Source: an uncultured Synergistales bacterium
GTDB taxonomy: Bacteria; Synergistota; Synergistia; Synergistales; Aminobacteriaceae
Direction of reading: 5' to 3'
Length of the DNA: 40,690 nt
NCBI GenBank assembly: GCA_905234075.1
Contig: CAJOGI010000011.1
Coordinates: 1 to 40,690 of the forward strand
The notes beneath the pieces were generated by a model. That model saw only the letters and a program-made list of their open reading frames with translations, ran no database searches and was not told the origin of the DNA. The stretch's first letter is position 1. Every line of letters begins with the position of its first letter. Of this stretch, positions 27,676 through 35,825 are shown one piece after another. The position numbers and the translations under genes are program-made.

Positions 27676-28170
27676 ATGGAAGAAAATAATTCTTGTACGA
27701 TACATGTTGTGCTTTTTTTTGCGTTGTGCATAGCTTTGTGCTCGGGAGTATGGTACGGGCTTCACGTCCTTGAAAGCTACCGCGAGGAATATGATTTTAT
27801 CGTCAACGAGCGCGATAATTTTTCAACCGTCATGGAGAGCTTGAGAAATAAAAATAAAACTCTCCAGAACATAAATAATCTACACTTGGGCGATGTCGGA
27901 ACTTCGGCAGACGGCGTGGATTTCTACGCACGTGTTAAGAAATTAATCGATGAAAATTCCGTGAACATGCTTTCAATGTCCGCAAATGACAACAACATCC
28001 TGACGCTGAAACTTCAAGGCAATTATTATTCGCTCATTCATCTCTTTGCAGACTGGCGCAATATGCCTTTTGCGTCGCGCATTACGTCATTGAGAATTGC
28101 CCGAGATGCTCAAGCCCCCTCAGATTTTGTAGATGTTGATGTAACGCTGGAGGCGTGGCAGAATAAATGA
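27676..28170 (+). CDS. PilO/GspM-like bitopic membrane protein
   Basis: 164-aa protein with a short cytoplasmic N-terminus and one transmembrane helix (about residues 10-28). A periplasmic coiled coil (about 33-65) leads to a small alpha/beta domain. This is the layout of PilO/PilN or GspM/GspL-type alignment-subcomplex proteins of type IV pili and type II secretion. AGGAG lies about 12 bases before the ATG. Its stop overlaps the next gene's start (ATGA at 28167-28170). Family assignment rests on architecture and on the neighbour rather than on a diagnostic motif. Confidence 0.55.
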   Translation: MEENNSCTIHVVLFFALCIALCSGVWYGLHVLESYREEYDFIVNERDNFSTVMESLRNKNKTLQNINNLHLGDVGTSADGVDFYARVKKLIDENSVNMLSMSANDNNILTLKLQGNYYSLIHLFADWRNMPFASRITSLRIARDAQAPSDFVDVDVTLEAWQNK

Positions 28171-28937
28171 ACGTCTTACTCGATAGTTTTACGGAATTTT
28201 GGGAAATTCTTACCGGAGTTTTTGATGACAACAGAGCAAGATTAATCCGCCTGTCGTGCTTTACCCTCCTTGCCTTCGGAGTGGCATGGGCTGCCATAAA
28301 TTATTTCAAGGCCGACAGAATTTCTGACACTGACGTTGAATTTTATTCGCCTTCCCAGCGCGAGGCACGCGGAGACAGCGCGGCTCTGAAAAAAATGGCT
28401 GACCTTGCTCGCACCGTTCAGGAAATGAAGCAGGGCGGTGAAGCAATAGCCGCAGCAATAGCCGCAAGACATTCAAAGCCCTTTAATATTGACGGCTATA
28501 ACGAAATGGGACTAGAAAATCTCGGAGAGGGCGGAGAATTTTTTTCGCAAAGCGACTCAACTATACAAATTCCCGGAGAAACTTCACTGGGCGAAGATAA
28601 TTCTGCTGAGCCGGAAATTTTAGTCAAGGCCGTGATGCTTTCAAAAAAGAATGCACGCGCCATTATCGACACGGCGACAGAAAAAAATAAAATCATTAAA
28701 CGCGGCGAAAATATTGACGGCTTCGGGCGCGTAACAAGAATAAGGAAAAAAGGAATAACGGTCAGGATAAACAGGCAGGACGTTGATTTTAATATCGCCG
28801 CATTTCCAAAAGCTGCGATGAATAAAAAAGACGAAGCGAAAAAAACTAATTTAGGCGTGGAAGAATTTTTATTTGAGGGCACGGTGCCGAAGGACAGTCC
28901 CTTAGCACCGACGACCGAGAGAGCGACAACAAATTAA
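28167..28937 (+). CDS. PilP/GspC-like single-span membrane protein
   Basis: 256-aa protein with a cytoplasmic N-terminus (~25 residues) and a hydrophobic helix at about 28-46. A long polar linker follows, then a C-terminal domain (about 150-230) with V-K-A-V-M-L-S-K-K-N-A-R-A-I-I-D, GENIDGFGRVTRIRKKGITV, like the homology-region beta domain of PilP/GspC that contacts the secretin. Likely partner of the preceding gene in a pilus or type II secretion alignment complex. Its stop overlaps the stop of the convergent ADP-ribosylglycohydrolase-like gene (shared TTAA at 28934-28937). Confidence 0.55.
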   Translation: MNVLLDSFTEFWEILTGVFDDNRARLIRLSCFTLLAFGVAWAAINYFKADRISDTDVEFYSPSQREARGDSAALKKMADLARTVQEMKQGGEAIAAAIAARHSKPFNIDGYNEMGLENLGEGGEFFSQSDSTIQIPGETSLGEDNSAEPEILVKAVMLSKKNARAIIDTATEKNKIIKRGENIDGFGRVTRIRKKGITVRINRQDVDFNIAAFPKAAMNKKDEAKKTNLGVEEFLFEGTVPKDSPLAPTTERATTN

Positions 28938-29740
28938 TTTTTCCATTGCTCCCACTTTTCGAGAGCAAATTTCAATCTTTTCTCGAGCCTTTCAAAGGCT
29001 TCAACCTCTGTCAAAGTTTTTATGCCGTAAAGAGCTTCAGCCAATGCGCCCGACATTGACGCAGTAGCGTTAGTCTCTCCGCCCAGAGAAATCGCTTTGC
29101 GTACAGCGTCCTCGAAATTTTCGGTCTCAAGAAAAGCAATTAAAGCCGCTGAGACCGTCTCAGGAGCCGAAGTCATAAAATCAAAATCAGGCCGTATATC
29201 TTCAATAGTTTTTGAGAGTGTCAGGCCTGTTTTCTCTTCAAAATAATTTTTTATGTCGGCCTTCTCTTTTTTTATGCGTGCAAGAAAAATCATTCCTGCC
29301 ATTGCACGCGCATAATTAACGCCCGTTTCAGTTTTATGAGTAACGCTTGCGGCGATCCCTGCGAATTTCTCAACGTCCTCAAGATTATCAAAAGCCCAAG
29401 CGATCGGCGAGACCCTCAAGGCTGCTCCGTTGCTCTCTGATTTATAGGGAAATGACTTTTCCACATGTATCCACGCATAAAATCTTCTGCCGTAATGAAT
29501 TTCTTTGAATTGTTTTCCAAATGTCTTCATAAAGTAAATTACTTCGTTCTTAAATTTTCCCTCAGAAAAATTTTTTTTACCCTGCACGCGCATAACCCGC
29601 ATTAAGGCTTCGGCAACAGCCAAAGTCATTACGCTGATTTCAGTGTTATAGGAATTTTCATTGAAAAGAGGAAAATCCGCATCTGCTTTTTCATTTCGAT
29701 ACGGACTTCCGATTATATCTCCGGCTATTGCGCCGAGCAT
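28934..29740 (-). CDS. ADP-ribosylglycohydrolase paralog, metal-binding motifs lost
   Basis: 268-aa member of the ADP-ribosyl-glycohydrolase (DraG-like) fold, a clear paralog of the gene upstream. Both share the MLGAI-x-GD-x-x-GSP opening, the M-R-V-S-P-x-A-W-A-F-D-N-L-E-D-V segment, and the ATA/YGI closing. The metal-binding motifs are gone: TDDT is TEIS, the C-terminal GDSDT is GETNA, and VTHNHSEG is VTHKTETG. It is therefore predicted to lack hydrolase activity, although it is full length and not frameshifted. It may bind ADP-ribose or ADP-ribosylated protein, or partner the active copy. Three bases separate it from the upstream gene. Confidence 0.82.
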   Translation of the reverse strand: MLGAIAGDIIGSPYRNEKADADFPLFNENSYNTEISVMTLAVAEALMRVMRVQGKKNFSEGKFKNEVIYFMKTFGKQFKEIHYGRRFYAWIHVEKSFPYKSESNGAALRVSPIAWAFDNLEDVEKFAGIAASVTHKTETGVNYARAMAGMIFLARIKKEKADIKNYFEEKTGLTLSKTIEDIRPDFDFMTSAPETVSAALIAFLETENFEDAVRKAISLGGETNATASMSGALAEALYGIKTLTEVEAFERLEKRLKFALEKWEQWKN

Positions 29741-29743
29741 GAA

Positions 29744-30568
29744 TTAATTTGCCCTCCATGCTTCCCATTTATTGAGGGCGTTCAATAGAAATTCATCGAG
29801 CTTGGGCAAAATCATTTTATTAATTTCGTCAGGTATTCCGTAAGCTCCTTCGGCGATCGAGGCAGCTATTGCCGTGAGAGTGTCAGAGTCTCCGCTTAAT
29901 GAAACGGCACAGCGCAGAACATCCTCAAAATTTTCGCCCTCCATAAAAGCCGTTATGGCTTCGGGGACTGTCTGCTGACAAGACTCAATGTGATGATAAT
30001 TCGGCCTGATTTCGTCAAGCGTCCGAGTTAAATCGTAATAATATTTTTCGCTGATGTAATGTTTTATTTCGGCTTTGCTCTTTCCCGTCCGCGCTAAAAA
30101 AATTGCCGCTGCCGTAGCTTGCGCTCCTTTTATGCCTTCGGAATGATTATGAGTAACACGCGAACTCACTGCCGCGAATCTTTCAACGTCTTCGAGATTA
30201 TCAAACGCCCACGCGACAGGGGAAACTCTCATGGCTGAGCCGTTACCCCATGAGTTATAAGGCTTAGGTAGTCCGCCGCTGAAAAGCCAATCATAAAATC
30301 TTCCTCCGTAGCCAGCGTTCGGATATTTTTTTCCAAAAGCCCGCATGGATTTTATGGCGTAGTGCTTAAATTCCGCCTCTGAAGTTTCGTCGCCCCTCTT
30401 AGGCATCGCGCACATCAAAGCGTCAGCCACAGCTAATGTCATTACAGTATCGTCAGTGTAGCGGGAAGCGTCTGACACTAAAGGATATTTTCTGCTGTAT
30501 GCTGTTTCTCTGTTGTTATCAAATTCAAACGGACTTCCGACAACATCTCCGACAATAGCTCCTAACAT
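29744..30568 (-). CDS. ADP-ribosylglycohydrolase (DraG/ARH-like), intact active site
   Basis: 274-aa hydrolase predicted to remove ADP-ribose from proteins, nucleotides or small molecules using two Mg ions. N-terminal TDDTVM and C-terminal GDSDTLTA carry the metal ligands, and VTHNHSEGIKGA is also intact. Length is normal for compact bacterial family members. It starts two bases after the DUF362 gene, with GAGGG in that gene's end as ribosome binding site. No ADP-ribosyltransferase is seen in the window, so the substrate is unknown. Confidence 0.9.
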   Translation of the reverse strand: MLGAIVGDVVGSPFEFDNNRETAYSRKYPLVSDASRYTDDTVMTLAVADALMCAMPKRGDETSEAEFKHYAIKSMRAFGKKYPNAGYGGRFYDWLFSGGLPKPYNSWGNGSAMRVSPVAWAFDNLEDVERFAAVSSRVTHNHSEGIKGAQATAAAIFLARTGKSKAEIKHYISEKYYYDLTRTLDEIRPNYHHIESCQQTVPEAITAFMEGENFEDVLRCAVSLSGDSDTLTAIAASIAEGAYGIPDEINKMILPKLDEFLLNALNKWEAWRAN

Positions 30569-30570
30569 TT

Positions 30571-31557
30571 TTAACCCTCGAACGGTTTCACGCCCTTCAC
30601 AGCGTCAGCCGGATAAATTCTCGAATTATTATTATCAATGTCGATTAAAACGTATTTATCGTTGCCCATTCCAAGTTCTTTCATGTAAGAGAGCTGTCTA
30701 AATCCGTGCCTCGATGACATTCTCTCAACGAGGGCAGCGCGGTCTTTTTCTGAAAGAGCAAAAATTAAATCGACGCAGGCTGAATCAATCGCAAGAATAT
30801 CGAGCGAGGCAAGTATACCAACGTTAGGAGTTACAACAGGCTCAGCGGCAACGCCCTCGCAGTCGCACGAGACTGACATATTGCGCATGACGTTAATATA
30901 TGCGACATTCTTCCCGAAATAATCTATAGTGGCCTTTGTTGATTCCGCGATGCGCTCCATAAATTCTTCTTTTGCTATATCCCACTGGTCAGGCTGTCCG
31001 GGTGTCGTGTGGATCATGGCCTTTCCGATTCGTCCGTCAGCACAGCCGATGCCGATATTTTTATTCGAGCCTCCGAAACCGCCCTGCACGTGTCCTTTGA
31101 AGTGAGTTAAAGCTAAGAGAGAGTCATAATTCAAAAGATTAACTCCGACTGACATCTCTTTGAACCAGTTGCCGCCTTTGACGGGTAATAACGCCGTGCC
31201 GTGTTCATCAAGAATATCGACGTTAGCAAAATCCCAGCCGTTAATTTTAAGCGTCTCTCTGTGCTGCTCGGTCGTATAGCGGTCGCCCTCGTAATATGAA
31301 TTTGTCTCAACAATTTTCGCGTCGGGTAAATCTTTTTCAATTAGGCTTTTAACCCATGTTCTAGGGATAATATTCGGGCCGTGCGGTTCGCCGGTGTGAA
31401 GTTTAATTGCAACTTTGCCGGTGATGTGCTGATTAATCTTTGAATAAATTTTTCTGAGTCCTTCCGCAGAAAGATCGCGTGTGAAATATACGATCGATTC
31501 ATTTCCGCAGCGTTTTTCGTATGGAACGTATTTGTCTCCGTCTTTTCCCGGTACCAT
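30571..31557 (-). CDS. DUF362 family protein (uncharacterised Fe-S-type protein)
   Basis: 328-aa DUF362 protein. Conserved features include V-A-I-K-L-H-T-G-E-P-H-G-P-N near residue 50, T-H-F-K-G-H-V-Q-G-G-F-G-G-S-N-K-N-I-G-I-G at about 150, and a C-D-C motif (VSCDCEG) with the Asp-rich segment ILAIDSACVDLI. No ferredoxin-type 4Fe-4S cluster is present in this copy. GGAGGA lies six bases before the ATG. It heads an operon with the two ADP-ribosylglycohydrolase genes (gaps 2 and 3 bases). The biochemical function of the family is not known to me. Confidence 0.85.
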   Translation of the reverse strand: MVPGKDGDKYVPYEKRCGNESIVYFTRDLSAEGLRKIYSKINQHITGKVAIKLHTGEPHGPNIIPRTWVKSLIEKDLPDAKIVETNSYYEGDRYTTEQHRETLKINGWDFANVDILDEHGTALLPVKGGNWFKEMSVGVNLLNYDSLLALTHFKGHVQGGFGGSNKNIGIGCADGRIGKAMIHTTPGQPDQWDIAKEEFMERIAESTKATIDYFGKNVAYINVMRNMSVSCDCEGVAAEPVVTPNVGILASLDILAIDSACVDLIFALSEKDRAALVERMSSRHGFRQLSYMKELGMGNDKYVLIDIDNNNSRIYPADAVKGVKPFEG

Positions 31558-31598: not shown

Positions 31599-31674
31599 TG
31601 GCGCGCTTGAGGAGAGTCGAACTCCTGACCTACGGCTCCGGAGGCCGTCGCTCTATCCACTGAGCTACAAGCGC
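31599..31674 (-). tRNA. tRNA-Arg (anticodon CCG)
   Basis: 76-base tRNA with CCA encoded. The acceptor stem GCGCTTG pairs with CAAGCGC. The D-arm is GCTCAGTGGATAGAGC. The anticodon stem ACGGC/GCCGT surrounds loop CTCCGGA, giving CCG, which reads CGG (Arg). The T-arm has AGTTCGACTCT. It lies just upstream of the DUF362 gene on the same strand. Confidence 0.95.
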
Positions 31675-34910: not shown

Positions 34911-35825
34911 TTGCCGGAAAAAGATATTGGCGAGAAAACTTTAATTGGATACCCGGACGTGTTCGCAAATATATTGAATGTATTTTTCAAAATCGAGGGC
35001 TTAGAGGGAAAAGTGCCGCGAGTGGAGCCTGAAGATCTTGAAGATATAAGGGGCTGGTCGTTTTATAAAGCATCTAATAAATTACGGGATCAGGAGCGCG
35101 ACGTTGTTAAGCTCTGGAAAACCGAAGGGGTTGCGTTTTGTTTAGTGGGCATGGAAAATCAGACGAGAACGGATCGTTATATGCCTTTGAGGGTTTTCAG
35201 CTACGAGGGAGCGGACTATCGAGAACAGTTGAGCAATATAAAAAAGAAAGGCGAAGATAAACAGAGAAAATTATATCCTGTTATAACTATCGTTCTTTAT
35301 TACGGAATTAAAAAACGCTGGAAAAATAATAAAAATCTGTTTGACGTTGTTAAACCGCAAAAATGGCTTAAGCCGTATGTAAATGACTGCCATATTAATA
35401 TTTTAGAGCTTGCGTGGCTGAATGAAGAACAGGAAAAATTTTTCAGCAATGACATGCGCTTAGTGGTACGGTATCTGCGTATGCTCAGAGAAGGGGAAAA
35501 GTTTGAGCCGGATGATACATTGCCGCTTCATTACCAAGCATTTTTGAATGCAATGCAGGCAATGACAGGTGATAAGCGTTTTGACAAAATTATTCAAGAG
35601 ACCGTAAAGCTAAAAAAAGAGAAAGGAGAAAAAACTATGATACCAAGTCCGTTTGAAGTTTTTAAAAATCAAATTACTGATGAACAACGTGCGATATGGC
35701 GAGAAGAAGCACTTGCAGAAGGCCGCGAGGAAGAGCGAAAAAACATTTTAAGCACGATGAGAGCGCGTTTGTTGGCGCACGGCATGTCCATTGATGAAGT
35801 CAATGAAATTCTTGCGCTTTCTTAG
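34911..35825 (+). CDS. Rpn/YhgA-family PD-(D/E)XK nuclease (putative transposase family)
   Basis: 304-aa member of the Rpn (recombination-promoting nuclease)/YhgA-like group, often annotated as putative transposase. The restriction-fold core is visible in YPDVFANILN, LVGMENQTRTDRYMPLRV (E-x-Q catalytic strand) and PVITIVLYYG. The C-terminal ~50 residues form a charged helical tail (EEALAEGREEERKNILSTMR) typical of the family. The start is TTG 34911 with AGGAG eight bases upstream. Such genes occur as multicopy solitary units in gut bacteria and probably move by recombination. No terminal repeats were found around it. Confidence 0.82.
   Translation: MPEKDIGEKTLIGYPDVFANILNVFFKIEGLEGKVPRVEPEDLEDIRGWSFYKASNKLRDQERDVVKLWKTEGVAFCLVGMENQTRTDRYMPLRVFSYEGADYREQLSNIKKKGEDKQRKLYPVITIVLYYGIKKRWKNNKNLFDVVKPQKWLKPYVNDCHINILELAWLNEEQEKFFSNDMRLVVRYLRMLREGEKFEPDDTLPLHYQAFLNAMQAMTGDKRFDKIIQETVKLKKEKGEKTMIPSPFEVFKNQITDEQRAIWREEALAEGREEERKNILSTMRARLLAHGMSIDEVNEILALS

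Follow-up and report, generated by a model that had tools for sequence, protein, structure and literature searches.

A predicted pseudoenzyme of the ADP-ribosylglycohydrolase fold encoded directly behind its intact paralogue in Synergistaceae genomes

Why would a bacterium keep, directly behind an intact ADP-ribosylglycohydrolase (ARH) gene, a second full-length gene for the same fold with an altered metal site? The question is raised by a 40,690-nt contig (CAJOGI010000011.1) of an uncultured gut bacterium of the order Synergistales (GCA_905234075.1; 1.84 Mb in 18 contigs), termed here the window. An initial annotation, made from the sequence alone, had described two adjacent ARH paralogues that keep the fold, one of which had TDDT changed to TEIS and GDSDT changed to GETNA, losing the metal ligands while remaining full length and uninterrupted. 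We refer to the two genes as paralogue A, or the live copy, and paralogue B, or the dead copy, the latter name denoting a predicted property. The genes and the relevant parts of their metal sites are as follows.

28934..29740, minus strand: predicted dead ARH-fold protein (paralogue B, "dead-1" type), 268 amino acids (aa); identified by its open reading frame (ORF), PF03747 match, alignment, tree and AlphaFold2 model
29744..30568, minus strand: canonical ADP-ribosylglycohydrolase (paralogue A, live), 274 aa, with seven of seven metal ligands
29696..29698, minus strand: R15 of the dead copy, in place of the flap glutamate (live E15, 30524-30526)
29633..29644, minus strand: TEIS of the dead copy, residues 33-36 (live TDDT, 30446-30457), read directly from the DNA
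29066..29080, minus strand: GETNA of the dead copy, residues 221-225 (live GDSDT, 29879-29893), read directly from the DNA

Fold and metal site of the two copies

The description of the pair as adjacent ARH paralogues was borne out. The Pfam family PF03747 matched the dead copy with 94 bits (1.7e-26) and the live copy with 127.6 bits (9.8e-37), the curated cut-off being 26.2, and it matched no other gene in the 18 contigs. The two proteins are identical at 120 of 273 positions (44%), and both frames are uninterrupted, that of the dead copy over its full 268 aa. Scores of the dead and live copies were far below the cut-off of 337.05 for the DraG equivalog TIGR02662 (38.0 and 57.4 bits) and that of 490 for the Tri1 equivalog NF041672 (31.2 and 44.6 bits). 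The closest named relative found was a Synergistaceae metagenome-assembled genome from goat rumen, RGIG3568, with a dead copy 87% identical to that of the window.

To model both proteins with AlphaFold2, we supplied alignments built from proteins of the window, of L033 and of IMG/VR. The mean predicted local distance difference test (pLDDT) score and the predicted template modeling (pTM) score were 91.4 and 0.92 for the dead copy, and 95.4 and 0.94 for the live copy. ARH3 was the best match of both models in the Protein Data Bank (PDB), with Z 29.1 and 2.9 Å over 256 residues for the dead copy and Z 31.8 and 2.8 Å over 262 residues for the live copy. Both copies are thus predicted to adopt the all-helical ARH fold. 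In sequence-based comparison, the best solved match of the live copy was again ARH3, and that of the dead copy was archaeal MJ1187, followed by ARH3.

From what is known of ARH3 and DraG, we take the ligand set of the ARH dinuclear metal site to comprise a flap glutamate, the T-D-D stretch and the D-x-D-T stretch. The relevant portion of PMC7050489 is consistent with this set. The live copy has all seven ligands expected of an active ARH (E15, T38, D39, D40, D227, D229 and T230). The dead copy has R, T-E-I and E-T-N-A at the corresponding positions, and thus keeps one ligand of seven, T33. Both motif changes are exactly as annotated. The claimed loss of the metal ligands stands in that six of the seven are replaced, including the flap glutamate in addition to the two motifs, but carboxylates partly remain, as two of the four former aspartates are now glutamates (E34 and E222). 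All seven ligands are kept in 44 of 44 complete rows outside the dead copy's clade in the tree described below, and in 43 of 43 ARHs drawn from 72 IMG/VR loci, which argues that the loss is not chance scatter. The substitutions strongly indicate that the dead copy is catalytically inactive, and E34 and E222 leave a small doubt as to whether it might bind metal.

Ligand loss and selection across the genus

We compared the pair across 43 genomes of the genus (Synergistaceae), 39 of which have a PF03747 match. The tree contained 62 complete rows, drawn from the surroundings of the best matches and in part from outside the genus, and was rebuilt without the ligand columns. Left out of the counts were the A copy of G010, which carries a frameshift and stops short of GDSDT, and five fragments, namely two pieces of the G027 A copy, which Ns interrupt, two of G019 and one of G002 at a contig end. 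The dead copy belongs to clade B, consisting of 18 rows that are all of this genus (support 100/98 with and without the ligand columns), and the live copy to clade A, consisting of 26 rows. Four rows (group C; G005, G021, G026 and G080) occupy the B position in the operon with their ligands intact.

Six of the clade B rows are of the window's type, termed dead-1 (G000, which is the window, G007, G014, G008, G082 and G025). All six retain their full length, at 267-274 aa, without a stop or frameshift, are about 60% identical to one another, have six of seven ligands replaced, and lie beside an A copy with all seven; replacement on this scale was observed in dead-1 copies alone. The pair that the initial annotation proposed to look for in relatives is therefore present in six genomes (species) of one genus. 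A pseudogene or a sequencing error is ruled out by the intact dead frame in these six genomes, and a separately acquired ARH is ruled out by the nesting of the dead copy within clade B.

Two or three ligand positions are changed in five further B rows. In G004, G028 and G084, the flap glutamate is histidine, the first aspartate of GDSDT is glutamate and the threonine is serine; in G029, the flap glutamate and the first aspartate of TDDT are both asparagine; and G027 reads TADS and GNSDT. The remaining seven of the 18 B rows are intact. Ligand loss thus affects 11 of 18 clade B rows vs. none of the 44 other rows, including none of the 26 complete A rows (Fisher exact test, 6e-8, a value overstated since the rows share kinship). 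Parsimony requires four changes of the lost or intact label within clade B, three of them forced by starred branches alone. All 11 degenerate B copies adjoin an A gene, which is complete and intact in ten cases and split by Ns in G027. B occurs without A in G006 and G011, each with a single PF03747 match and an intact B, and these two genomes are too few to make a rule of the company that degenerate B copies keep.

Fifteen in-genus loci outside the tree (L022, L025, L029 and L192-L203) were examined by motif pattern. Nine are intact, two (L022 and L195) have complete motifs with an in-frame stop between them, one (L199) is changed, and three (L200-L202) represent another ARH subtype that the pattern does not score. 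In a control set of 40 loci from outside the genus (41 ORF hits), 32 matched the first pattern and 38 matched a looser pattern set after the misses were known; the three exceptions were L170, with its end cut off, L153, failing the glutamate part alone, and L155. A single-ligand change is rare, but it is not confined to clade B.

The ratio of nonsynonymous to synonymous substitution rates (omega) was estimated for two close genome pairs, the synonymous divergence (dS) of the other 13 pairs being above 1.2 or undefined. By the Nei-Gojobori method, omega of the dead copy was 0.242 (95% interval 0.145-0.400) for G000/G007 and 0.115 (0.056-0.206) for G008/G082, compared to 0.095 and 0.037 for the live copy, and none of 2000 codon bootstraps gave an omega of 1 or above for either dead pair. 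The Biopython NG86 implementation gave 0.242 and 0.121 for the dead copy, and its YN00 (Yang-Nielsen) implementation gave 0.343 and 0.094 for the dead and 0.106 and 0.040 for the live copy. The dead copy is under purifying selection, looser than that on its partner. The test of selection proposed at the outset thus came out in favor of retention in both close pairs, and the relaxed, disrupted versions in relatives that would have spoken against it were sought and not found. The view of a retained, catalytically dead partner holds as to its retention in all six genomes, with the qualification that selection is looser than on the live copy. Here one protein combines lost catalytic residues with a frame that stays open in relatives and is under purifying selection, as in a pseudoenzyme.

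The six dead-1 copies are invariant at 109 of 268 positions. Conservation in 90% or more of 51 intact rows marks 86 positions, and at 50 of these the usual residue persists in five or six of the dead copies. At 11 positions, all six share a residue unlike that common to at least 85% of the intact rows (in live numbering, D39E, D40I, P83K, M113L, A155M, G162K, Y191F, P202S, E203A, T230A and I234M). The losses cluster in the metal site, the 140-148 loop and the V-P-E motif: H140 is kept in three of six copies, G148 is Y or F in all six, G86 and E144-G145 vary, and E15 is replaced variably by R, H, L, K or I. Invariant in all six are S106, N109, G110 and R114-V-S-P, whose S, N, G and R residues we take to be the phosphate loop. 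The pattern suggests that the pocket was rebuilt, not abandoned. Mean net charge is -0.8 in dead-1 copies (n=6), -7.7 in their live partners (n=6), -5.7 in intact B copies (n=7) and -7.4 in other degenerate B copies (n=5), which is suggestive, and no more, of a shift to a basic surface in dead-1 copies only.

Gene order and possible roles of the dead copy

The genes and signals around the pair are as follows.

30571..31557, minus strand: DUF362 (PF04015) protein by Pfam match, heading the presumed operon
29753..29757, minus strand: GGAGG within the 3' end of the live gene, 12 nt ahead of the ATG of the dead copy
31599..31674, minus strand: tRNA-Arg (ccg), upstream of the DUF362 gene

Two bases separate the DUF362 gene from the live ARH gene, and three separate the live from the dead ARH gene. 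The 3-nt stop-to-start gap, together with GGAGG, is compatible with translational coupling within the presumed operon. TGGAGG occurs at the end of the A gene just before the dead copy start at all six dead-1 loci, and the same hexamer precedes the second gene where the two copies lie in the other order, so that the encoding of Trp-Arg may explain it as well as a ribosome site would. By a hand count that left out G001 and G002, which are cut inside the ARH pair, 26 of the 29 in-genus loci that carry A, B or C have a same-strand DUF362 gene immediately upstream. This gene is missing in G025, G006 and G013, is separated by 173 bases in G023, and runs into the end of the contig in G008 and G022. 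The usual order is DUF362-B-A, and the window has DUF362-A-dead B; at the dead-1 loci A precedes dead B, all six having FlhA past the dead copy and five having DUF362 at the opposite flank. DUF362 is thus a near-constant ARH neighbor, suggesting a shared pathway. The DUF362 protein had no solved relative by sequence at E values up to 0.1; the relevant portion of PMC11770544 places DUF362 and DUF2088 (the lactate racemase family) in one Pfam clan, from which no mechanism follows. A tblastn search against plasmids returned 13 records, none above 60% identity.

With moderate confidence, we favor the view that the dead copy is a pseudoenzyme kept by selection, acting through non-catalytic binding of the live enzyme or its client. 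In a presumed operon of the DUF362 protein, the active ARH and, directly behind it, the dead ARH, the downstream gene would have become an ARH fold without the dinuclear metal site. Made together with the live hydrolase, its product would pair with the active copy or hold the client protein of the active enzyme, and such binding would tune de-ADP-ribosylation. We infer this role from the gene order, from the A copy that always accompanies the dead copy and from the re-fixed site. The earlier suggestion of a regulator or ligand sensor is plausible; the remodeled pocket (H140 and G148) argues somewhat against a simple ADP-ribose sensor.

Several observations weigh against a selected binding partner. 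Binding to A or to a client is a prediction, and to our knowledge the ARHs described so far function with no partner of this kind. B is missing next to A in seven genomes (G013, G017, G018, G023, G032, G033 and G085; in G018 the downstream side is cut by the contig end 222 bases past A), and is therefore dispensable at the scale of the genus. Omega is higher in the dead than in the live copy, the order being reversed in a share of only 0.022 and 0.045 of bootstraps for the two close pairs. Protein divergence of the dead copy is 2.69 times that of A (median of 15 genome pairs), compared to medians of 1.47 for intact B (six pairs) and 1.53 for B of the G004/G028/G084 type (three pairs). In G000/G007, dS is 0.251 for the dead and 0.149 for the live gene, so these neighbors have no single shared neutral rate. 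The aspartate-to-glutamate swaps (E34, and E222 in five of six dead-1 copies) might still hold metal; the title of PDB entry 6d3a names human ARH3 D314E with ADP-ribose and magnesium. Finally, ligand changes occur outside clade B, in the long-frame ARH of L199 (G005:C76), with S-S-D for T-D-D, and outside the genus in L155 (G093), with T-G-D for T-D-D.

A wider form of the favored view holds that the same paralogue was driven towards a pseudoenzyme three to four times while A lost no ligand, so that the active/inactive pair would constitute a bacterial prozyme-like switch for de-ADP-ribosylation, with DUF362 as a further component. We lowered its weight in view of the ligand changes outside clade B, and consider it rather doubtful. 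The dead copy might instead bind ADP-ribose or an ADP-ribosylated protein but leave it uncleaved, and so protect the modification or sense how much ligand is present. The invariance of the presumed phosphate loop would fit such a function, and the titles of PDB entries 7l9h and 7l9i, human ARH3 D77A and D314A bound to ADP-ribose, indicate that one lost ligand need not abolish binding. However, six of seven ligands are replaced here rather than one, and the loss of the flap glutamate together with the changes at H140, G148, G86 and E144-G145 suggests a pocket that was lost or reshaped, making this possibility unlikely.

The faster evolution of the dead copy, its higher omega, the repeated ligand losses in clade B and the seven genomes with A alone would also be expected of a loosely constrained duplicate heading slowly for loss, with A covering its function. 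Six frames free of stops and frameshifts at such low mutual identity, an omega far below 1 and new residues fixed at former catalytic positions argue against decay, which we regard as quite unlikely. The same re-fixed positions, two of which are glutamate, could point to a new or differently metal-bound activity centered on the conserved T33-E34 and G-G-[EQ]-x-x-A-T-A. We raised the weight of this explanation because two aspartates became glutamates, and still judge it very unlikely: no catalytic motif is recognizable, and isoleucine for D40 and a variable residue for E15 suggest filling rather than chemistry.

Known counterparts and further observations

The closest precedent for the favored pseudoenzyme role is ARH2/ADPRHL1 of vertebrates, an ARH fold in which metal-binding aspartates are replaced and one aspartate of the C-terminal pair has become glutamate, as in dead-1. 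Mammalian ADPRHL1 keeps one of the four aspartates, whereas the bacterial dead-1 copies keep none, and ADPRHL1 is a heart protein without an operon containing an active copy; the two probably have separate origins. The ADPRHL1 gene is kept and needed despite presumed inactivity, according to the portions consulted of PMC7390403 and PMC7050489. ARH3 (ADPRS), the best fold match of both copies, shares the flap glutamate, TDDT and GDSDT with the live copy, whereas the dead copy has neither the metal site nor the flap glutamate. DraG has the same fold and, in the relevant part of PMC7050489, is regulated by a bound partner, the PII protein (structure 3o5t); unlike DraG, both window proteins fall far below the equivalog cut-off, and the partner proposed here is a paralogue.

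ARH folds also occur as subunits of large assemblies, in ARHL of the algal Ycf2/Orf2971-FtsHi motor (8xks_Q; Z 24.9 to the dead copy) and chain FP of the trypanosome mt-SSU assemblosome (6sga_FP; Z 18.3), which implies that the fold can act as a building block of a complex. These belong to eukaryotic organelles and are likened to the dead copy by fold alone, not by catalytic status. The trypanosome prozyme, whose fold is unrelated to the ARH fold, offers a parallel of an active enzyme with a retained, catalytically dead paralogue; complex formation was shown for the prozyme and is proposed for the window pair. The prozyme activates S-adenosylmethionine decarboxylase, as described in the accessible part of PMC5201418. 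Vertebrate ARH pseudoenzymes and pairs of an active enzyme with a dead paralogue are thus already known. Limited literature searches, mostly excluding subscription papers, found no bacterial ARH pseudoenzyme beside a live paralogue; a pseudoenzyme passage that did turn up deals with PARPs, and the portion of PMC11833690 concerning RNA de-ADP-ribosylation has no dead ARH. The function of vertebrate ARH pseudoenzymes is hard to dissect; the bacterial pair consists of small soluble proteins, making what a dead ADP-ribosylhydrolase does, and why it is retained, directly testable. Sister species display stages that begin with two intact copies, pass through partial degeneration and end in a wholly altered site, and offer natural before-and-after pairs.

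In agreement with the initial annotation, no ADP-ribosyltransferase was found nearby among the 34 window ORFs scanned with Pfam, the other window ORFs lying outside that scan. DarT and macrodomain families had no match genome-wide, in a search that did not extend to PARP, Tpt1/KptA, DRAT or toxin-type ADP-ribosyltransferases. The genome has one sirtuin, and SIR2 is present in 40 of the 43 genomes, including all four without a PF03747 match (G016, G020, G024 and G036), while the three SIR2-less genomes (G001, G013 and G022) do carry ARH genes. The sirtuin product O-acetyl-ADP-ribose is therefore not supported as the reason for the pair, since SIR2 presence does not track ARH presence.

Further observations concern other ARH genes of the set. 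L195 (G003:C148, codon 58) and L022 (G023:C111) have an in-frame TAG at nearly equal positions with coding intact on either side; PylS had no match above the family cut-off in any of the 43 genomes, which leaves a pyrrolysine reading of TAG unsupported. The A copy of G010 is frameshift-split at L050 5150-6040, by a real change or an assembly error, beside an intact B, and in G019 a complete ARH and two fragments lie one after another where a contig ends (L069 3-1495). L199 also has G-N in place of G-D, and L155 has two ARH genes within 1.8 kb, the T-G-D one having G-N for G-D near its start. In sister genomes, frames of 523-537 aa at L019 1501-3000, L028, L070 and L071 5296-6867 encode an intact ARH domain followed by 238-263 aa with D-R-S-G-S-M, which we take to resemble a VWA metal site; in two of these proteins, Pfam matched the ARH part and nothing in the extension. 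In the window, the stop of the dead copy overlaps by four bases (28934-28937) with a convergent plus-strand ORF (28167-28937) without a Pfam match, and a PF04754 (YhgA-like putative transposase) gene at 34911-35825 is flanked by oxidoreductase genes on one side and a nucleoside phosphorylase-family gene on the other.

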